Of a stretch of 64,000 bases of DNA, positions 1 to 16,079 are shown piece after piece. The stretch is from Halogranum amylolyticum (GTDB lineage Archaea > Halobacteriota > Halobacteria > Halobacteriales > Haloferacaceae): positions 1 through 64,000 of the forward strand of contig NZ_FODV01000002.1 in NCBI RefSeq assembly GCF_900110465.1. The letters run 5' to 3'. The notes beneath the pieces are model-generated. The model searched no databases, was not told where the DNA came from, and saw only the letters and a list, made by a program, of their open reading frames with translations. The number at the start of each line of letters is the position of its first letter. Position 1 is the first letter of the stretch. A program made the translations under genes and the position numbers.

Positions 1-1001
1 CGCTCTTCTGTAGGAGATTGTTGATACAGTTCAGCTGTTGCTCTAGAATCGAAGAGGGCAAGGGCACCGCGTTAGCGGTGTCCGACACGAATGATTCCGC
101 TCGATGTGTTTGGTTCGGAATCGCTCGCAGCGGACCTGCTCCAACAGGTTCGCTGGCGTGACGGCGTCGAATGCCCCCGCTGCCGTTCTGACCGGACGGT
201 CAGAAACGGCAGCTATGGGGCGTTTCAACGCTATCTCTGTAAGAATTGCGACCGCACGTTCAACGACAAGACGGGCACAATTTTCGCTCACTCGAAGGTT
301 GCGCTCCGCAAGTGGTTGTTCTCAATCTACGCGTTTCTGCGCTTCAACACGAGTCTTCGCCAACTTCAGCGAGAGATCGGTGTCACCTACAAGACGATGC
401 ATCAGCGCGTCGAGCGCTTTACCAGAGCGCTCGACGCGCCTCAACTCGACCTCGTTGGACCGGTCGAAATCGACGAAGTGTACGTCTCTGCGGGGTTGAA
501 AGGCCGCGAGCGCGACCAAGAGTCGCGCTCGCGTGGCCTGTCCACGCGCGGACGAGGTTCGTACGAGGGAGACAAACCACCGGTCTTCTCCATCGTTGAC
601 CGTGGAACGGGACAGCGATACGTCGCCCCAGCGAAATCCGCTGACGAATCGACAGTGCGACTCCTGCTGGCGGACCACGAGGAGGAGTCGCTGACCGTCT
701 ACACTGACGGATTTCGGGCATACGACCCACTGGAGGACGACGACGAATTCACCCGCGAATACGTCGTCCACGGTGACGGCGAATACGCTGATGGAGACGT
801 TCACGTCAACACCTGCGAGAGCCACGCGTCGCTGGCGCGACGGTGGCTCTCGCCGCATCGAGGCGTCTCGAAGGACAAGTTGACACAGTATCTCCGCGCC
901 TTTCAGCTACGCAGCGAACTCTTCAGAAAACCCGGTCGAAAAGCACTCAAACACGCTGTCAAAGCGACTCTCTGAAATCAACAATCTGCTACACATGAGC
1001 G
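1..1001 (+). mobile_element. ISH4-like IS1595-family insertion sequence
   Basis: A single transposase gene lies between inverted ends. The left end at 9-25 (TGTAGGAGATTGTTGAT) matches the reverse complement of 977-993 (TGTAGCAGATTGTTGAT) at 16 of 17 positions. Similarity continues outward: CGCTC at 1-5 matches the complement of 997-1001. The true left tip may therefore lie just before the window, and no target duplication can be judged. Size and arrangement fit ISH4-type elements of about 1 kb. It abuts the lower-G+C mobile region that follows. Confidence 0.85.
91..975 (+). CDS. IS1595-family (ISH4-like) transposase
   Basis: This 294-residue transposase should catalyse cut-and-paste movement of the surrounding element. 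An N-terminal zinc ribbon is visible (CPRC near residue 29, CKNC near residue 50), as in IS1595 enzymes. The DDE-type catalytic core follows: VEIDEVYV near residue 126, VYTDGFRAY near residue 204, and HVNTCESH near residue 240, which supplies the Asn/Glu-type third acidic motif. The reading frame is uninterrupted and ends one base before the right inverted repeat, so the element looks potentially active. The ATG at 91 gives the normal family length and starts just upstream of the zinc ribbon. Confidence 0.92.
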   Translation: MIPLDVFGSESLAADLLQQVRWRDGVECPRCRSDRTVRNGSYGAFQRYLCKNCDRTFNDKTGTIFAHSKVALRKWLFSIYAFLRFNTSLRQLQREIGVTYKTMHQRVERFTRALDAPQLDLVGPVEIDEVYVSAGLKGRERDQESRSRGLSTRGRGSYEGDKPPVFSIVDRGTGQRYVAPAKSADESTVRLLLADHEEESLTVYTDGFRAYDPLEDDDEFTREYVVHGDGEYADGDVHVNTCESHASLARRWLSPHRGVSKDKLTQYLRAFQLRSELFRKPGRKALKHAVKATL

Positions 1002-2070
1002 ACTGGAAAAGACAAGTGGAAACCATCACCCTTGAAATTTTAGGTGGAAAGAACCACACCCCCAGATAGTCACGCGGTAGAAGCTCTGAAACCCGAGAAA
1101 AAGAGTAGGGTATCAAATAGTACATATAATTTGATGTCCTAAGCAACACTCATAGTAGGGGTGCAAATTTGCCACCCCCGTCTGAACTATTACTAAAATC
1201 TGATAAATGACGAGAAAAGTAACCTAATCTTGACCGCGCCGTCATACTACCCATGGGACCCCCCGAGTAGAGCAGATTGGTGGCTCCCGAGTTTTGTTTA
1301 TAGAATCTGATAAGACCCGTCTGAAGAGTCACGGTCCCGGCTCCCCTAACCTGAAGATTGAATCCTGAATCTGGTTAGAGAATCCTGAACCCGACCCCTG
1401 AACGAGAATAGTGACACCCCATTCTGAATGTGACAAGGAACACCCCAGAATGATCGACGATAAAGACACACCCCGGAACAGTAGCGACGAGAATAGAATC
1501 ACGAACAAAGCACAACAGAACACACCCCGGTCTAAGCGCAAAATACCAGACCGATGAATCAGAAGGCGTCGCGGAATGAAATCACGGTCAATGCTCACCA
1601 CACACCGGAAAACATGGACGCGACAGAATGCCGGGGAACTGCTGAACGCGAAAACTGTGGGAGCCAAATCACGTCTAAGACAGAAGGGGGTCCAAGTCTC
1701 ACAAGAACAGAACAGACAGCGCGTCGCGAATGAAGATCGAAGAGAAGCACACCGTCCCGCGAATGAAAACCGAGGTTAGGGGGGAGACAGCGCGTCGCAA
1801 ATGAAACACACCCAAATCTACAACAGAAACCACAGTCAAACTCCCGATTTCAACAAACTGATATACCTCATCGCGAATGAAAACCTGGGATGAGACACAC
1901 AGCACGTCGCAAATGTATTCACTGACAGATTCCTCCCGGGGTGACATCAGTAACACGAGTGGGGTGGACGCGCCATAACACGAACACAACTGAACCATCA
2001 ATCAGATTACCCGGCAGTGACGGTCTGAACAACGACAATACTGCAAAACCCGAATTTTAACAGGCTAGAT
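1002..2070. other. Gene-poor tract of the element, T-depleted on the + strand
   Basis: I see no convincing gene here. Open frames on the minus strand (for example 1329-1667 and 1699-2001) have no recognisable content and look like by-products of skewed composition. From about 1400 to 2080 the + strand is visibly rich in A and C and poor in T. The tract contains the repeated motif annotated at 1566-1918. Several repeats place an ATG at the same point, creating very short frames such as a 24-codon one beginning in the copy at 1721. It could be a replication or regulatory region, or DNA specifying a non-coding RNA. Confidence 0.5.
1566..1918 (+). repeat. Six dispersed copies of a CGTCGCRAATGAAA-like motif
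   Basis: Related copies lie near 1566 (GCGTCGCGGAATGAA), 1721 (GCGTCGCGAATGAAG), 1753 (CGTCCCGCGAATGAAAACC), 1792 (GCGTCGCAAATGAAAC), 1869 (CATCGCGAATGAAAACC) and 1903 (CACGTCGCAAATGTA). Two sub-types alternate: one preceded by GAGACA or AGACAG, the other followed by AAACC. All are in the same orientation. Spacing is irregular (roughly 30-155 bases), so this is not a CRISPR array. It could be iterons bound by an initiator or regulator. Confidence 0.6.
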
Positions 2071-2640: not shown

Positions 2641-2720
2641 GGGGTGGTTTCGGACCAGAACCACCCCACTTGATTTTGAAACAACCCCAGTTTGGGGTGG
2701 TTGTGTGTAAGGTATTTAAG
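2641..2720 (+). promoter_or_regulatory. Operator cluster and TATA box for the 549-aa RHH protein
   Basis: Three copies of GGGGTGGTT occur: 2641-2649 (+), 2659-2668 inverted (AACCACCCCA) and 2693-2702 (+, TGGGGTGGTT). The last two form a perfect 10-bp inverted repeat. They are followed by a TATA-like GTATTTAAG at 2712-2720. That TATA lies about 30 bases before the ATG at 2746, so the transcript should be essentially leaderless. Operators directly upstream of a gene whose product begins with a ribbon-helix-helix-like segment suggest autoregulation; this is inference. Confidence 0.6.
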
Positions 2721-2745
2721 TATGGGTCTACGACCACAGAATACA

Positions 2746-4395
2746 ATGGGTAAAAAATTGAACTATCGCGTTGACGAGAACGTCGCCGAAATGTTTCGGG
2801 AGGCTGTCGAGAAGAAGCACGGGCAGGTAGCGTATAAGGCCGGAGATGAGTTGTCCCGATTGATGCGTGAGTGGTCCGAGACCGTGCTAAACGGCGAAAG
2901 CGCGGATTCGGATGAGCCGTCGAATGAAGACCTTCTGGAAGCTATCAATGAGCTTAGAGAGGAGTTCGAGGACGGGATCGTTGCACCCCCCTCCCCCTCA
3001 AAACCCCCGCGAGAAAAAAATAATCGGGGGGATGCCGAAACCACCCCAAGTTCAGACGATTCTGAGTCAGATTCCGAGTCAGATTCGGAATCTGATGTGG
3101 AGTCGGATGGGGGTCAGGACATGGACGCGTCCACGCCCACACGTGAGAAGCCGTGGCTAATCACGGATTACAATCCATATGATTTCAACGGTGAGATATC
3201 ATCGGAGAAGTTCGACGAGCTTCACGAAACCGTGAAGAGCGGGGGTGACGTGCCTAACGACTTAGTGATCAATCCGGAGCATGTCGAAAAAACGAATGTG
3301 CCGAACACGACGGTTGGCACGCAGACGGAGATTGTGTTGGGGATGTTGCGGTACGATTCTGGTGGGCCGTATTCGAAATCCGAGTTGTCGCGAGTCATTA
3401 AGACAGTCTGGCCGACGGATTACTATTCGAATCCGAGTGACGGGAGTCTGATTAATCGTGTGTGGGGTCAGATGCCGGATCATCCGTTCAAGTCTGGGTC
3501 TGCGGTTGACATGCATACGATTCAGAGTGACGCGAATGAGAAAGCGGCGCGTGAGGTTGCGTTGGCGAAGAAAGAATTGTCGAAGGTTGACAGTGTTGAA
3601 TCGGTTCGCGAGCGGGACGAACTAATCGAAAGGGTGGAAGAGCAGGAGGATGTGGTTGATGAGTTGACGGACACGTACCAGCTTGATGGGATTCATCAAG
3701 AGGGTATGCGCGATGTGATGGATGACTTGGAGGAGGCCCAGGAGACGATGACGGAGAGTATCCGTGAGTCGCGTGAGCAAGACGTGCAGGATGTTGCTGA
3801 CAAGGTTCGAGGCTACGTTGACGACTTGGATGAGACAGTTGATGAGTCGGATGTTGTCGACATTGTTGAGTCGGCACGCAAGTCGGCGTCAACGTATCTT
3901 GACGTTGATACGGACATGCAGGCAGCGGATGATTTGTCGGTGCGCATGATTGCGGCTGAGTCGTCGTCATCGTCGGATGACGTGACTGACCTTGGTGTGT
4001 CGACTGCGCCGGTTCGAGATGCGCTTGATGAGGTTGAGTCTGCGGCGGAGGATCGTACTGAGTGGTTGGAGGAGAATGACCCGACGCGGAGTTTAGATGA
4101 CATCCCTGAGGATGCGTATCGGCAGACATCCAACCGTGACTTCAGCAAGGTGGACGCCGGGACGCGTGACGGTGATCAAATCGTCTTCGGATCTAGTCTG
4201 CATCCACGTGAGAAGGCGCGTGTGGTTGTTGATGTGTTAGGGTATGACTTCGCGAATGATGTTATCGGGACCATCCATGTCTACGCAGTTGGGGGGGATG
4301 ATGTTGCTGATGCACTTGAGGAGACTGTGCTTGACGAGTTCAGTGAGGATACGGATGCGGATGCTGAGACGATGCTGGAGAATGCGGACTTATGA
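2746..4395 (+). CDS. RHH/coiled-coil DNA-binding-type protein of the integrated element (549 aa)
   Basis: I do not recognise a named family. Residues 1-45 (KLNYRVDENVAEMFREAVEKK and the following helix) look like a ribbon-helix-helix fold. Residues about 75-125 are a Pro- then Ser/Asp/Glu-rich linker with repeated SDSES units. Residues about 180-255 contain a winged-helix-like stretch (EIVLGMLRYDSGGPYSKSEL). Residues about 265-370 are strongly coiled-coil and a mixed acidic domain ends the protein. I chose the ATG at 2746 because the TATA at 2712-2720 would initiate within a few bases of it; an upstream frame extension to 2692 would overlap the promoter. Codon use is more A+T-rich than the host genes, consistent with mobile DNA. 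DNA-binding plus coiled coil fits a replication, partition or master-repressor role (inference). Confidence 0.65.
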   Translation: MGKKLNYRVDENVAEMFREAVEKKHGQVAYKAGDELSRLMREWSETVLNGESADSDEPSNEDLLEAINELREEFEDGIVAPPSPSKPPREKNNRGDAETTPSSDDSESDSESDSESDVESDGGQDMDASTPTREKPWLITDYNPYDFNGEISSEKFDELHETVKSGGDVPNDLVINPEHVEKTNVPNTTVGTQTEIVLGMLRYDSGGPYSKSELSRVIKTVWPTDYYSNPSDGSLINRVWGQMPDHPFKSGSAVDMHTIQSDANEKAAREVALAKKELSKVDSVESVRERDELIERVEEQEDVVDELTDTYQLDGIHQEGMRDVMDDLEEAQETMTESIRESREQDVQDVADKVRGYVDDLDETVDESDVVDIVESARKSASTYLDVDTDMQAADDLSVRMIAAESSSSSDDVTDLGVSTAPVRDALDEVESAAEDRTEWLEENDPTRSLDDIPEDAYRQTSNRDFSKVDAGTRDGDQIVFGSSLHPREKARVVVDVLGYDFANDVIGTIHVYAVGGDDVADALEETVLDEFSEDTDADAETMLENADL

Positions 4396-4634: not shown

Positions 4635-4787
4635 ATGAGTTCGGCGACGAGAGGTAGTGAGGATGGCAATGACGTGGGCATTGCCTCTGACGGAAGTAAC
4701 GGTGAACAAGAAGAGTTGGAGCGACTTGCAGAGCGAGAGGACGCTACGGGGTGGATCGCTCGGGCAATGCTGTCTGGGAAGACTTAA
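4635..4787 (+). CDS. Small acidic protein, function unknown (50 aa)
   Basis: This 50-codon frame begins MSSATRGSEDGNDVG and ends IARAMLSGKT. It has a well-placed TATA box (4597-4604) and ends in TAA at 4785-4787. It runs tail-to-tail into the integrase gene, whose stop lies at 4784-4786, so the two overlap by 3 bases. The protein is acidic with a short amphipathic C-terminal helix and no recognisable domain. Good promoter placement and clean spacing against the integrase are the arguments for a real gene. Confidence 0.5.
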   Translation: MSSATRGSEDGNDVGIASDGSNGEQEELERLAEREDATGWIARAMLSGKT

Positions 4788-6205
4788 TCCACGAGTGTTT
4801 CAATGGATTCCTCAACGGCTTCTCGTGGTGCTTCAAATCCGCTGAAGTGGTGTTCGAGTTCGTTCTCGGACAAGTGCGCGGACAAGACGCTGTCCTCCCC
4901 CTCAAACAAGTTGTTTAGCGTCTCTCGGGCTTCCGCTGCTTCTTCATCAGTCCCCTCGATTTGTTTTTTCACAAGACCAACTGCCACCCGTGCACTGACC
5001 TGTTTGAACGTTTGAAAGCCTAGTTCTCCAATATTCCGAGGTTCGTGTTGACGGAGATAATGAGTCAGATCGTCATCTTCTTCGGCGACATCGAAGAACG
5101 CTTGAAGCCACTGGGGACGGGCATCGTCGGAGACCCGGAGATGACACCGTGGGCATTGCGATGTCCCGGCAGCCATGATGGTGTCGCAACGCGGGCATTT
5201 GATGGCTTCTTCTTCGACGTCGATATCGACGTCTGCGTCGATGTCAGCGGCTCTAAGCAGTGATTTGATTTGGTCGGATTGGTTGATGTGTTCGTAGCGC
5301 TCGTGCTGATTAGTCCCTTCTGTCCAGTCCAGGTTGTGTTCAATGTCGCCAGGTCCGTATTCGTCTTTCTTGCGCATCCATGTTGCTCTTGCGTGCCGGA
5401 ATGCGTGGTTATTCACCCTCTCAGGGTCAATCCCGGCTTCTCTCGCGATTCGCTTGATTTTCACCCTGAACGATTCCGGGGTCATATGCTCACCGTAGTG
5501 TTTCTCGCTGTCTTGTCGGCAAAACAGCGCGGCGTCATCGTCATCAGCACACGGGTGTTCGGAGAGCCACTTGTCGACATACCCGCGAGCGACGGTCAAG
5601 GGCTTCTTGCGTCCATCTGCACCTTTGAGTCCGGTTGCGCCAGTAGGTGTGGTTAAAATTGCGTGAGTGTCCTCTATTGGTTCGTAATCCCCGACTCTAA
5701 GTGATGCGAGTGCAGTAACTCGGGGAGCGGCTTCCCAGTATGTGGCGATAATCGCTTTTTGACGTGGTTTTGATGCTGTCTCAATCAGCGTTGAAACTTC
5801 ACTGAATGACAGTACGACGTCTTCATCGATTTTGCTCTGGTTAACGCTTGGAACCGTGAGATTGTCTGCGACGTCTAAGTTGTGATGCCTCGAAAAGTAA
5901 ACAAATGCTTCAATGTACTTTCTTCGTGTGCCATCTGCGTAGCCGTTCTCGGAGTCGTAGTCACGGCCCATCTCTCGGAGAACGTTCTTGAATTCTCTCC
6001 GGTCAAGTTTCCTGAGTGGTTTCTCAGCGTTAGCAGATAGTCGTCGGAGTCGACCTATGTAGTCGCGTGTTGTTGCGGGGGTCGCGTCCAGCGCGTCAAT
6101 GTAGTCGACAATGTCTCCCTTGTTGGGGTCGTCAAGAGAGTCCATCACGAGATTGAGTTCGCGTTGAACGTCTGATTCGTAGTTGGCTACGTCAAGGTCG
6201 ACCAT
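4784..6205 (-). CDS. Tyrosine recombinase/integrase with C-terminal zinc ribbon
   Basis: This 473-residue site-specific recombinase should insert and excise the element. Residues about 10-105 form a SAM-like core-binding domain. The catalytic domain shows the conserved Arg at about 162 (PRVTALASLRV), HAFRH at 267-271 (H-x-x-R) and the nucleophile Tyr at about 304 (HERYEH). After the catalytic domain come CPRC (337-340) and CPRC (351-354), a zinc ribbon, then a helical tail; this C-terminal addition is not part of the minimal recombinase. The ATG at 6205 gives a normal N-terminus. The frame stays open upstream through ATG 6235 and into the disrupted PLD gene, giving a potential 971-residue fusion. 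No TATA lies between the junction and the start, so expression in the integrated state may depend on the host gene. Confidence 0.9.
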   Translation of the reverse strand: MVDLDVANYESDVQRELNLVMDSLDDPNKGDIVDYIDALDATPATTRDYIGRLRRLSANAEKPLRKLDRREFKNVLREMGRDYDSENGYADGTRRKYIEAFVYFSRHHNLDVADNLTVPSVNQSKIDEDVVLSFSEVSTLIETASKPRQKAIIATYWEAAPRVTALASLRVGDYEPIEDTHAILTTPTGATGLKGADGRKKPLTVARGYVDKWLSEHPCADDDDAALFCRQDSEKHYGEHMTPESFRVKIKRIAREAGIDPERVNNHAFRHARATWMRKKDEYGPGDIEHNLDWTEGTNQHERYEHINQSDQIKSLLRAADIDADVDIDVEEEAIKCPRCDTIMAAGTSQCPRCHLRVSDDARPQWLQAFFDVAEEDDDLTHYLRQHEPRNIGELGFQTFKQVSARVAVGLVKKQIEGTDEEAAEARETLNNLFEGEDSVLSAHLSENELEHHFSGFEAPREAVEESIETLVD

Positions 6206-6244
6206 TTTGTGTCCAACAATTGGTGTTTGGAACATCAACCTTGG

Positions 6245-7699
6245 GTACGGATTCCAGTTGACGCTGCCGACGACGACGCGGTCGTCGGCGACGACGGCCT
6301 TCGCGTGGATCTTCTCGAACCGGCCGTCGGGGGCGGCGACGCGAGCCTCCAGCGGCAGGTTCCGACGTTCGGCCCGCTCGTTCAGCCAGTCGACGAGTCG
6401 GCGGTTCTCCTCCGCGACGTACCACGTCCCCGAGAGAAGGATCCGGACGTCGACGCCGCGCTCGGCGGCCCGGAGCGTCGCACGGAGGAACGGGTGGTGG
6501 CGGCCGCCGACCGTCGGCTGGACGACCGAGACACGTTCGGTCGCGCTGTCGACGACGCCGACGATTGCTCGCTCGGCGTTGCCGGGTGCGGTCACGAGCC
6601 GCACGCGGTCGACGGCGACCGAGCGAGAGTCGAACTGCGCCCGATACGTTCCGTTCGCAGACCGACTCGCGGTGAACGATCGGCCGCGGCGGAACTGCGA
6701 CCACGGCGTCGTATCCGGCCCGGTGGCGTCGGTCCGAAAGACGGCGGCGAGTTCGTCGGCCGTCGCCGTCGACGCGACGCGGACGCCCCACCCGCGGTTG
6801 CTTCGGCCGCCCGTCCCGCTCGGCTTCCAGTTCTCGGTGAGCACGAGCGCCCGGTCGTCGACGACGGCGTACTTCGGGTGGTGGTAGTCGTACCGTGCAC
6901 GCTCGCCACCGACGACGGCGACGTCGACGCCCGCCGCTTCGAGTCGGTCGAGTGCGGCCGCCTGTCGGATCGTCGTCCCGCCGACGGGCGCGTCGTCGAC
7001 GAGCACTCGGACGCGAACGCCGCGTTCGGCGGCCGCGACGAGCAGGTTCGCGACGTGGGGCGAGGCGAACGTGTAGCCGGCGAGGAGGATGCGTCGGTCC
7101 GCGCTCCGGAGCGTCCGTCGCGGGACGTCGGGGGCGTCGGGAAGCACGAACGTCTCGGCCGTCGTCGACCCCGCGACGGCGACCGACCGGGGGGAGAACC
7201 CGAGCGGTCGCCACCGCGGCGTTCGATCCCGGCGCCATCGCTCTCCTTCGGGTGCGTTCTCGTAGGCGACGCGGTCGACGACGACACCGTCTCGCTTGAG
7301 TCGGAGTCGCTCACCGCCGTTGGCGAGTTCGAACGCCGCCGGCGCGCGGACGACGCGCCCGGTCGTCCCGTTCGGGAGCGCCGTAGGCGTCACGGTGACG
7401 ACGAGACGGGTCGGACTGCCGTTCGAACCGGTCGCGTCGGTCGGCAGCGCCACCGTCGCCTCGCCGTCCGTGAGCGTCCAGTTTCCGGACCGCTCGGCCG
7501 AGAGGCCGACGACGACGAACTCACCGCGGTCGCCGTCGGCGAACGGGTTCGGGTACAGCGAGACGACGTACGCGTCTCGGTCGTCGTGCGGCGGGGACGA
7601 ATCGGGTGGGGGCGAGGCGGCGGAGGCGACGCCACCCGAGGGTGGACTCATCGCTACACAGAGAATGACGAGTACACAGAGCGTAGCGGGACGAGACAC
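6245..7699 (-). pseudogene. Phospholipase-D-like secreted protein, 3' end removed by element integration
   Basis: The N-terminus is a signal peptide (residues 1-29). A beta-rich lamin-tail-like domain follows (about 43-160), then two PLD phosphodiesterase halves with the motifs HHPKYAVVDD (about 273-282) and IHAKAVVADD (about 464-473). Haloarchaeal homologues continue past the second motif (VGSVNWNP, ending near residue 484) for a further segment that I expect to include a membrane anchor. Here composition changes at residue 485 and the frame runs into the integrase. Both catalytic motifs remain, so the truncated or fused product might still fold, but normal anchoring is lost. Its start at 7699 is supported by the signal peptide. 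Confidence 0.85.
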
Positions 7700-7795: not shown

Positions 7796-9070
7796 TCAGG
7801 CCGTCTGCTGGACCGAGAGCGCGTCGGAGGCCTTTTCGGACTCCGACTGGACGAGGTACGAGCGGTCGTCGCCGTACTCGGCGGCCGCCTCGAGCGCCTT
7901 CTCGGTGCCGATCTGTCGGAGTGCCCACGCGGCGCTGGCGCGGACGGTGTCGTTCTCGTCGTCGGCGAGGACGTCCGTGAGCGGGTCGACGGCACGGGTG
8001 TCGCCGAGGAGGCCGAGCGCGCGGGCCGCGTACGGACGGACGTTCTCGTTCTCCATGACGAGTTTGTTCGCCAGCGGCTGTGTCGCGCGTTCGTCACCGA
8101 TCTCGCCGAGCGCCTTGAACGTCACCTTCTGCAGTTGGGGGTCTTTGTCGGCGTCGACATACTCGACGAGCGTCTCGACGGCGTCGGTCGCGCGCATCTT
8201 CCCGAGCGCCTTGATCGCGGGTTTGTTGCGCTTCTGTGCGCGCTGGTGCATCGCGTCGAACGCCGCCTGGTCGTTCATGCGGATGATCGACTCCAGGCAG
8301 TTCTCCTCCATGAAGTCCGACTGGAAGCTCTCGAGCGCGAGTAGGACCATCTCGACGTTCCCCTCCTGCTCCCATCCCTTGACGGCAGACCACTCCGGCG
8401 GGTAGTCCTTGTAGTGACCGAGCACGTCGTAGAACCCCTGTACCTGGAGCTGCTCGCGGGTCTCGAGGTCGTCCCACTCCTGGGCGTCGTCGAGGTCGGA
8501 CTCGAGGTCGTCGGCCGCCTCGACGAGCGTGGCGATGGTCTCCGCGTCGTCGTCGGCGTCGAGGTCCGCGGCTTCGATGGCCGCCACGGCGTCGTCGAGT
8601 GCGGCGGTCAGTGCGCTCTCGTCGGTGCCGTCGACAGATACGGAGGTGTCGAGGATGTTGTTCACCGAGTCGACGAACGACTCGACCGCCGTGACGATCT
8701 CCGTCTCCCCGCGTTCGGTCCAGCGGGTGTCGGAGATCTTCGTCTCGGCCTCCTCGACCATCTCGACGACGTCCGCGGCGTAGGGGCCGCGCTGCGCTTC
8801 GAGCTCCTCGCGGAGGTCCGAGAGCGTACCCTCCAGTTCCTCGCGGACGTTCTCCTCGTCGTCCTCGTCTTCGTCCGGTTCCGGGAGGTCGGCGGCCTCC
8901 AGGTCCGACTCGATGTCGTCGAGTTCCGCTTCGACGTCGTCGAGGTCGTCCTCGGTCTCGGCGGCCTCCAGGTCCGCCTCGGCGGCCGACAGCCGTTCTT
9001 CGAGGCTTTCGGCCGAAATCTCGTCTTCCGCTGCGCCCGAATCCTCGGGCGCGTCGTCCCCGTCACTCAT
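7796..9070 (-). CDS. HEAT-repeat protein with acidic coiled-coil N-terminus
   Basis: The 424-residue product has a very acidic N-terminal half (residues 1-90) with predicted coiled coil, a helical middle region, and a C-terminal array of HEAT/PBS-lyase-type repeats from about residue 285. Examples are AIKALGKMRATDAVETLVEY, TFKALGEIGDERATQPLANK and AARALGLLGDTRAVDPL. Such repeats usually mediate protein-protein contact; no catalytic motif is visible. The gene stands alone, divergent from the nitrilase-family gene and separated from the PLD gene by about 95 bases. I expect a cytoplasmic scaffold, but a specific role cannot be given. Confidence 0.85.
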   Translation of the reverse strand: MSDGDDAPEDSGAAEDEISAESLEERLSAAEADLEAAETEDDLDDVEAELDDIESDLEAADLPEPDEDEDDEENVREELEGTLSDLREELEAQRGPYAADVVEMVEEAETKISDTRWTERGETEIVTAVESFVDSVNNILDTSVSVDGTDESALTAALDDAVAAIEAADLDADDDAETIATLVEAADDLESDLDDAQEWDDLETREQLQVQGFYDVLGHYKDYPPEWSAVKGWEQEGNVEMVLLALESFQSDFMEENCLESIIRMNDQAAFDAMHQRAQKRNKPAIKALGKMRATDAVETLVEYVDADKDPQLQKVTFKALGEIGDERATQPLANKLVMENENVRPYAARALGLLGDTRAVDPLTDVLADDENDTVRASAAWALRQIGTEKALEAAAEYGDDRSYLVQSESEKASDALSVQQTA

Positions 9071-15659: not shown

Positions 15660-16079
15660 ATGGATCTGGAAGACGTTGCGCCCACCGTCGGGGTCGGTGC
15701 CTGCGTCGCACTACTCGTCGCACTCGGAATACCGTACGTCGCCGTCACCGACGCGGGTCCCACCCTCGGGGCGTACTACGCCTCGGGCCCCGTCGGCAGC
15801 GGGGGCATCGCTTTCATGTCGCTTCTCACCGTCGTCGTGCTGCTTTCGGGGACGCGCGGGACGGCGGAACCGGATCTCGTCGCCGGCATCGCGCTCGTCC
15901 TCGGCGTCGTCACCTTCGCGCTCGCCGTCCTCTGGGCGGTCTCGGTCGATCCGACCGTCCTGTTCAGTTTCCCGCCGTCGGCCGCGTGGATCGCGAACCA
16001 CCGCTGGGTCGTCGTCGCCCTCGCGGCGGTTGTCCCTCTGGCTGCCGCCGGCTACGCTCGCGGCGTCCTCTGGAGGTGA
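15660..16079 (+). CDS. Four-helix membrane protein, function unknown
   Basis: The 139-residue protein has four hydrophobic helices: about 10-28 (VGVGACVALLVALGIPYVAV), 50-63, 71-93 and 114-136, with short polar loops. There is no signal for cofactors or transport motifs. It resembles a small haloarchaeal family I recall as DUF7548. ATG 15660 is chosen because it directly precedes the first helix and lies after a promoter-like stretch; the open frame from 15549 overlaps the divergent thiolase promoter. It precedes the SRP RNA gene. Confidence 0.7.
   Translation: MDLEDVAPTVGVGACVALLVALGIPYVAVTDAGPTLGAYYASGPVGSGGIAFMSLLTVVVLLSGTRGTAEPDLVAGIALVLGVVTFALAVLWAVSVDPTVLFSFPPSAAWIANHRWVVVALAAVVPLAAAGYARGVLWR

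Follow-up and report, generated by a model that had tools for sequence, protein, structure and literature searches.

SNJ2-type elements (SNJ2, HHPV-4 and Halfgib1) encode a tyrosine recombinase on a pleolipovirus-like provirus, target tRNA genes and recombine at a short core, which comprises 14 bp in SNJ2. To our knowledge, the described pleolipo-proviruses use tRNA genes. In published pleolipo-proviruses, attP is located downstream of the integrase gene (PMC7911831), and the SNJ2-type family is delimited by 30% identity over 60% of the protein (PMC8371274). For the AvPV1 provirus, which is related to the Archaeoglobi pleomorphic viruses GAPV1 and ThalV2, a tRNA-Gly site with 27-bp repeats was reported (PMC10919331). 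Furthermore, protein-coding targets are documented in archaea, namely the HMG-CoA reductase gene for BJ1, as well as the targets of Msmi-Pro1 and of thaumarchaeal iMGEs (PMC8371274, section 19; PMC6563490). Most archaeal integrases residing in protein-coding genes are known from isolated examples, and a 2021 review of archaeal tyrosine recombinases asks whether coding targets carry the required dyad symmetry (PMC8371274).

In this study, the first 64,000 nucleotides of contig C25 (NZ_FODV01000002.1) of Halogranum amylolyticum, referred to as the window, were analyzed. The corresponding genome assembly comprises 5.19 Mb in 61 contigs, with a contamination value of 10.8%. Based on the evidence described below, an approximately 21.8-kb pleolipovirus-like provirus was very probably integrated into a host phospholipase-D-like (PLD) gene, conserved among haloarchaea, by site-specific tyrosine recombination. 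As in BJ1, Msmi-Pro1 and the thaumarchaeal iMGEs, attB lies in a coding gene and a short sequence is shared between the junctions. The thaumarchaeal elements occupy 3'-distal regions, whereas the break observed here is located just past a catalytic motif. Moreover, unlike in the known coding-gene cases, a single integrase clade retains one target across three families of haloarchaea. The earlier note had described a protein-coding target as unusual for archaeal integrases, which is too strong in view of the documented cases; what is new is the integrase clade together with its target and the layout of its attP, archaeal coding-gene targets as such being already known. A literature search, mostly covering papers accessible without subscription, found no paper naming PLD as an integration target. 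Since the same coding target is used by one clade in three families and both ends are mapped, target choice becomes open to comparative study. Coordinates of the features discussed are compiled in Table 1.

Table 1. Features of the integrated element, its attachment site and the interrupted host locus (window coordinates unless contig C33 is indicated).
Feature	Position	Strand	Basis
IS1595-family insertion sequence in the element	1..1002	+	Transposase 91-975; Pfam DDE_Tnp_IS1595; other copies
567-aa ORF of the element	2692..4395	+	Replication protein guessed from position only
Integrase gene (473 aa), starting with an ATG of its own	4784..6205	-	PF00589, E 2e-12; start aligns with the relatives' MVASGDD starts
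Right arm AGGTTGATGTTCCAAA	6226..6241	-	15/16 inverted copy of the left arm
13-bp stretch separating the 7-mer from the right arm (putative core-type half-site)	6242..6254	-	Five reconstructed attP sites
7-mer TCAACTG, attP dyad centre, putative crossover (overlap) region in attR	6255..6261	-	Junction comparison of attL (C33) and intact attB
Host PLD-like gene, 5' part	6255..7699	-	Pfam PLDc_2/PLDc; 68-73% identical to same-genus intact PLD proteins
Host HEAT-repeat-like gene, upstream of PLD	7796..9070	-	Synteny with empty-site genomes L003 and L004
Left arm TTTGGAACACCAACCT	C33:15647-15662		Junction/attP reconstruction

The 971-codon reading frame joining a PLD-like part to a tyrosine recombinase part, which had been noted previously, was confirmed at 4784-7699 on the reverse strand and is free of internal stop codons. 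Pfam analysis of this frame revealed a PLDc_2 domain (residues 195-323), a PLDc active-site motif (465-483) and a Phage_integrase domain (630-807). The change in base composition claimed for the junction was also recovered, with the GC content falling from approximately 0.67-0.72 to 0.52. Within the PLD part, a signal-peptide-like N-terminus and both HKD motifs are present, and the protein is severed after Gly-Ser-Val-Asn. An intact PLD gene was found in two genomes of the same genus, the identity given in Table 1 referring to the common part. Both congeners read through the site and define attB, as the earlier note had proposed. The break is located at 6255-6261, just past the second catalytic motif, in agreement with its description of the element. 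Past GSVNWN, the intact proteins continue with NWNNNSVRENREV and comprise approximately 70 further residues including a hydrophobic C-terminal segment; integration strips the protein of these residues, the hydrophobic anchor segment included. In the congeners, the PLD gene ends beside a convergent DHH-family gene and is preceded by the HEAT-repeat-like gene, which also neighbours PLD in Halorubrum californiense (L042). PLD orthologues elsewhere in the family are mostly uninterrupted across the site. Two genomes with PLD matches ending near the site (G092 and G169) were rejected as occupied, since the two matches abut and represent small frame interruptions lacking an insert. An unrelated insertion of approximately 15 kb (L132, G165:C1:299392-314413) also interrupts this PLD gene, but at the HHPK codons of the first HKD motif.

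Since the window begins at a contig end within the element, the left attachment site has to be located on another contig. The missing 3' part of the PLD gene, whose absence from the assembly would, according to the earlier note, speak against an integration, was found together with the DHH gene on contig C33 of the same genome (from position 15676; DNA 87% identical to the congener). Hence, the host PLD gene is disrupted by an integrated element, and both junctions were identified. Contigs C25 and C33 overlap by 95 bp, each ending in an IS1595 copy. On both contigs the 8 bp bordering the IS read ACTGGAAA, the right copy lying directly beyond the IS end and equalling the C33 flank; another copy of the IS is flanked by ATTTCGAC. 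As shown by this identical target duplication, C25 and C33 flank one IS inside a single element, the size of which is approximately 21.8 kb, or 20.8 kb without the IS. The fragmented assembly and its contamination value might suggest a chimera in which an unrelated integrase was joined to PLD. However, both PLD parts show conserved synteny at their flanks, the IS target duplication matches between the contigs and the same architecture is repeated in independent genomes, making an assembly artefact extremely unlikely.

Contig C33 also carries the viral part of the element. A spike protein showed 38% identity to HRPV-1 VP4 over 87% of the query, an NTPase resembles its HHPV-3 and His2 counterparts, and a small protein belonging to the phage family phrog_3232 occupies the VP3 position. 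The VP4-like, VP3-like and NTPase genes form one cluster (L009:4739-11776), and by its gene content the approximately 21.8-kb element is a pleolipovirus-like provirus. For its 567-aa ORF, no match was obtained in Pfam, PHROGs or phage records. The provirus additionally encodes a second, short tyrosine recombinase (L009:1500-2165) and a protein with a weak match to a SIR2-like domain (L009:2264-3319), the latter possibly representing a defence gene.

The recombinase encoded in the window scored 47.5 bits against PF00589 (curated cut-off 27.1) and features a C-terminal CxxC...CxxC motif. The catalytic residues R162, K194, H267-x-x-R270, H290 and Y304, assigned by motif, are invariant in all five members of the group described below; AlphaFold modelling on five sequences yielded a pLDDT of 46. 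This integrase presumably carried out the cutting. BLASTP comparison with the integrases of SNJ2, HHPV-4 and Halfgib1 gave no match, and the window integrase occupies a separate position in the tree. Assignment to the SNJ2-type family was rejected, as no match placed the integrase within the family threshold and neither a tRNA attB nor an attP downstream of int was observed; attP is located at the 5' end of int and the target is the PLD gene. The nearest matches in the phage collection were GAPV1 and ThalV2, with 28-29% identity over 65% of the query, and in these records the integrase is the first gene. In contrast to AvPV1 with its tRNA-Gly target, the window element occupies the PLD gene. 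Single-sequence scans of genome contigs and viral contigs gave no match, as did an alignment scan of viral contigs.

Searching 171 genomes from the family and 394 from the order for the integrase yielded four close relatives (46-48% identity): G109 (Halorubrum californiense DSM 19288), G384 (Halapricum hydrolyticum HArc-curdl7), G452 and G367. All four interrupt the PLD orthologue of their host at the codons used in the window's genome, and the PLD target is therefore shared among the five elements. Their integrases form one clade (support 100/99) spanning three families. The G367 element is whole on one contig (approximately 21 kb) and is inserted in inverted orientation, its 7-mer CAGTTCA being the reverse complement of TGAACTG; a stop noticed in its integrase proved to be merely the normal gene end. 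In G452, the PLD parts are approximately 88 kb apart. For G109 and G384, the left ends are located on other contigs and the elements are not closed.

Comparison of the junctions showed that attR and attL share 10 bp (TCAACTGGAA, 6252-6261), which are also common to attB. The 7-mer TCAACTG lies past the second HKD motif, within the codons for Ser-x-Asn-Trp-Asn, and the same or a near-identical 7-mer occurs at the junctions of all five elements. The reconstructed attP has the order TTTGGAACACCAACCT, 13 bp, TCAACTG, 13 bp, AGGTTGATGTTCCAAA; similar arms, again 13 bp from the 7-mer, were found in all five members. Within the window's element, only two close copies of the 16-bp arm exist, and arms are absent from the host side. 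Around the 7-mer, 20 of 36 positions pair (shuffle p ~1e-4 for the window's genome), the values for the relatives being 8e-4 (G367), 0.02, 0.02 and 0.05, of which the last three are individually weak. With regard to the question raised in the 2021 review, dyad symmetry in the five PLD elements resides mainly in the attP arms. These patterns suggest that crossover takes place within the 7-mer, so that recombination would occur in TCAACTG between two flanking 13-bp half-sites. The arms are probably bound by the integrase and are regarded as putative arm sites, and attP would carry two of them in inverted orientation that are absent from attB. A similar asymmetry is found in lambda, likewise with arm sites in attP and not in attB. 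A scan with the left-arm pattern identified 6 of 394 genomes (0 for the reversed control), representing four PLD elements and two orphan sites. The orphans, left-arm plus TCAACTG sites at the edges of low-GC stretches (L199, G074:C1:2309462; L197, G043:C1:359145), have no PLD gene or integrase nearby. In G048, contigs C149 and C94 (end of L130, start of L131) both break off precisely at the PLD attB and overlap there by 12 bp (TCTCAACTGGAA), a pattern that would be expected if only some cells of the population carried an element; a related integrase was not found in this bin.

In order to characterize attB conservation, 47 PLD orthologues were used, ORFs having been chosen for containing G[ST]xNW, a selection favouring the motif and not the Asn codon choice. 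Among these, the highest conservation of any 7-mer was that of AACTGGA (0.997), and TCAACTG was placed in the top few of the 1464 windows compared. The 7-mer reads TCAACTG in 39 of the 47 genes and TGAACTG in seven. In these G[ST]xNW-selected ORFs, attB is thus among the best-conserved stretches of the PLD gene. The near-invariance of this DNA is attributed to Asn-Trp-Asn being encoded as AAC TGG AAC, since this tripeptide would leave little synonymous freedom. The Ser-x-Asn-Trp-Asn codons following the second HKD motif serve the integrase clade as attB.

The earlier note had also treated the in-frame read-through from PLD into the integrase as a feature of the locus, and this did not hold up. 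A functional, selected fusion produced on PLD transcripts would explain the frame lacking stops and the 49 bp from core to ATG, in which inspection revealed no obvious TATA-like element. However, only one of four same-orientation junctions, that of the window, is in frame. Counted from the AAC codon, the integrase ATG is reached after 54 bp in the window and after 50 bp, which is not divisible by three, in G109, G384 and G452, where the PLD frame stops after 3, 207 and 33 bp, respectively; the fourth relative is inverted. Measured from the 7-mer, the integrase ATG follows at a near-constant distance (45-46 bp in four members, 49 bp here), and only 49 bp gives an open fusion. Moreover, inspection suggests that the signal-peptide-like PLD N-terminus would send a fusion out of the cytoplasm. 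Taken together, a selected fusion appears highly improbable, and PLD-integrase fusions were rejected as a protein family, the frame not being conserved among homologues. Since the PLD and integrase frames mismatch elsewhere and the ATG-crossover distance is near-constant, the in-frame join is regarded as a coincidence of one insertion, resulting from the 49-bp spacer. Translation of the integrase from its own ATG at 6205 is most likely, given the position of the relatives' ATGs relative to the 7-mer and the signal-peptide-like N-terminus of PLD.

At the opposite junction, some members have a left end whose frame runs on into the PLD remnant, and others have stop codons there; such a frame would also follow from DNA conserved at a codon-fixed site. 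The frame of the reconstructed circle, which extends without a stop to an ATG in the left end, would be compatible with an attP inside the integrase ORF and loss of the first codons (MTLVVDLEHQPNFVSINWN from the left end) upon integration, as in suicidal SSV-type integrases, which likewise have attP near the start of int. However, the left end of H. californiense has stops in the integrase frame, and the integrase starts are located on the right side of the core, at a fixed spacing from it. Integration splits the int ORF in SSV-type elements, whereas the integrase is whole in all five integrated elements, so that this mode of integration is very unlikely.

The integrase points inward with its 5' end beside the 7-mer, and its translation probably begins at the ATG at 6205. 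The previous statement that no integrase promoter is visible is in line with the 49 bp separating the core from the ATG. Compatible with the preferred explanation is a re-wiring in which attP lies between the promoter region and the integrase, and the integrated gene needs read-through from the host. The integrase 5' end adjoins attP in all five members, and at the other end the closest ORF is divergent, so that a promoter in the circle would have approximately 147 bp available, a stretch split by integration. Furthermore, the same-direction upstream gene is PLD in four members and the DHH gene in G367. Nevertheless, a TATA-like TTATACC occurs within the right arm of three relatives, 26 bp ahead of the integrase ATG, and could serve them as a promoter of their own, and G367 has no PLD promoter upstream. 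Dependence of the integrase on host-gene transcription, to which the earlier note had pointed, is plausible, and the re-wiring as a whole can be put forward tentatively.

The five elements have one integration module in common and share little other gene content. Pleolipovirus genes occur in the window's element only, and the cargo is accordingly not common to the group. In the Halapricum element (G384; L164, L174, L175), Dpd-type genes and apparent preQ0-pathway genes, the latter read by eye, were found. These DpdA/DpdJ-like and preQ0-pathway-like genes represent a 7-deazaguanine DNA-modification defence island. The same element encodes a homologue (L175:3185-3802) of the short second recombinase of the provirus with 55% identity. 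With the pleolipovirus, the Dpd defence island and the 88-kb island counted as cargo, an integrase plus arm-bearing attP may form a module that uses low-degeneracy catalytic codons as a widespread coding attB and hands integrase control to the interrupted host gene; this broader reading is considered rather unlikely. Sister-clade integrases (L045:9222 and 18315; L169) split the rlmE/FtsJ gene, identified by eye, at Tyr-Tyr-Asn codons. In these insertions, the element end provides a new ATG for the gene, which represents another coding target in the wider family.
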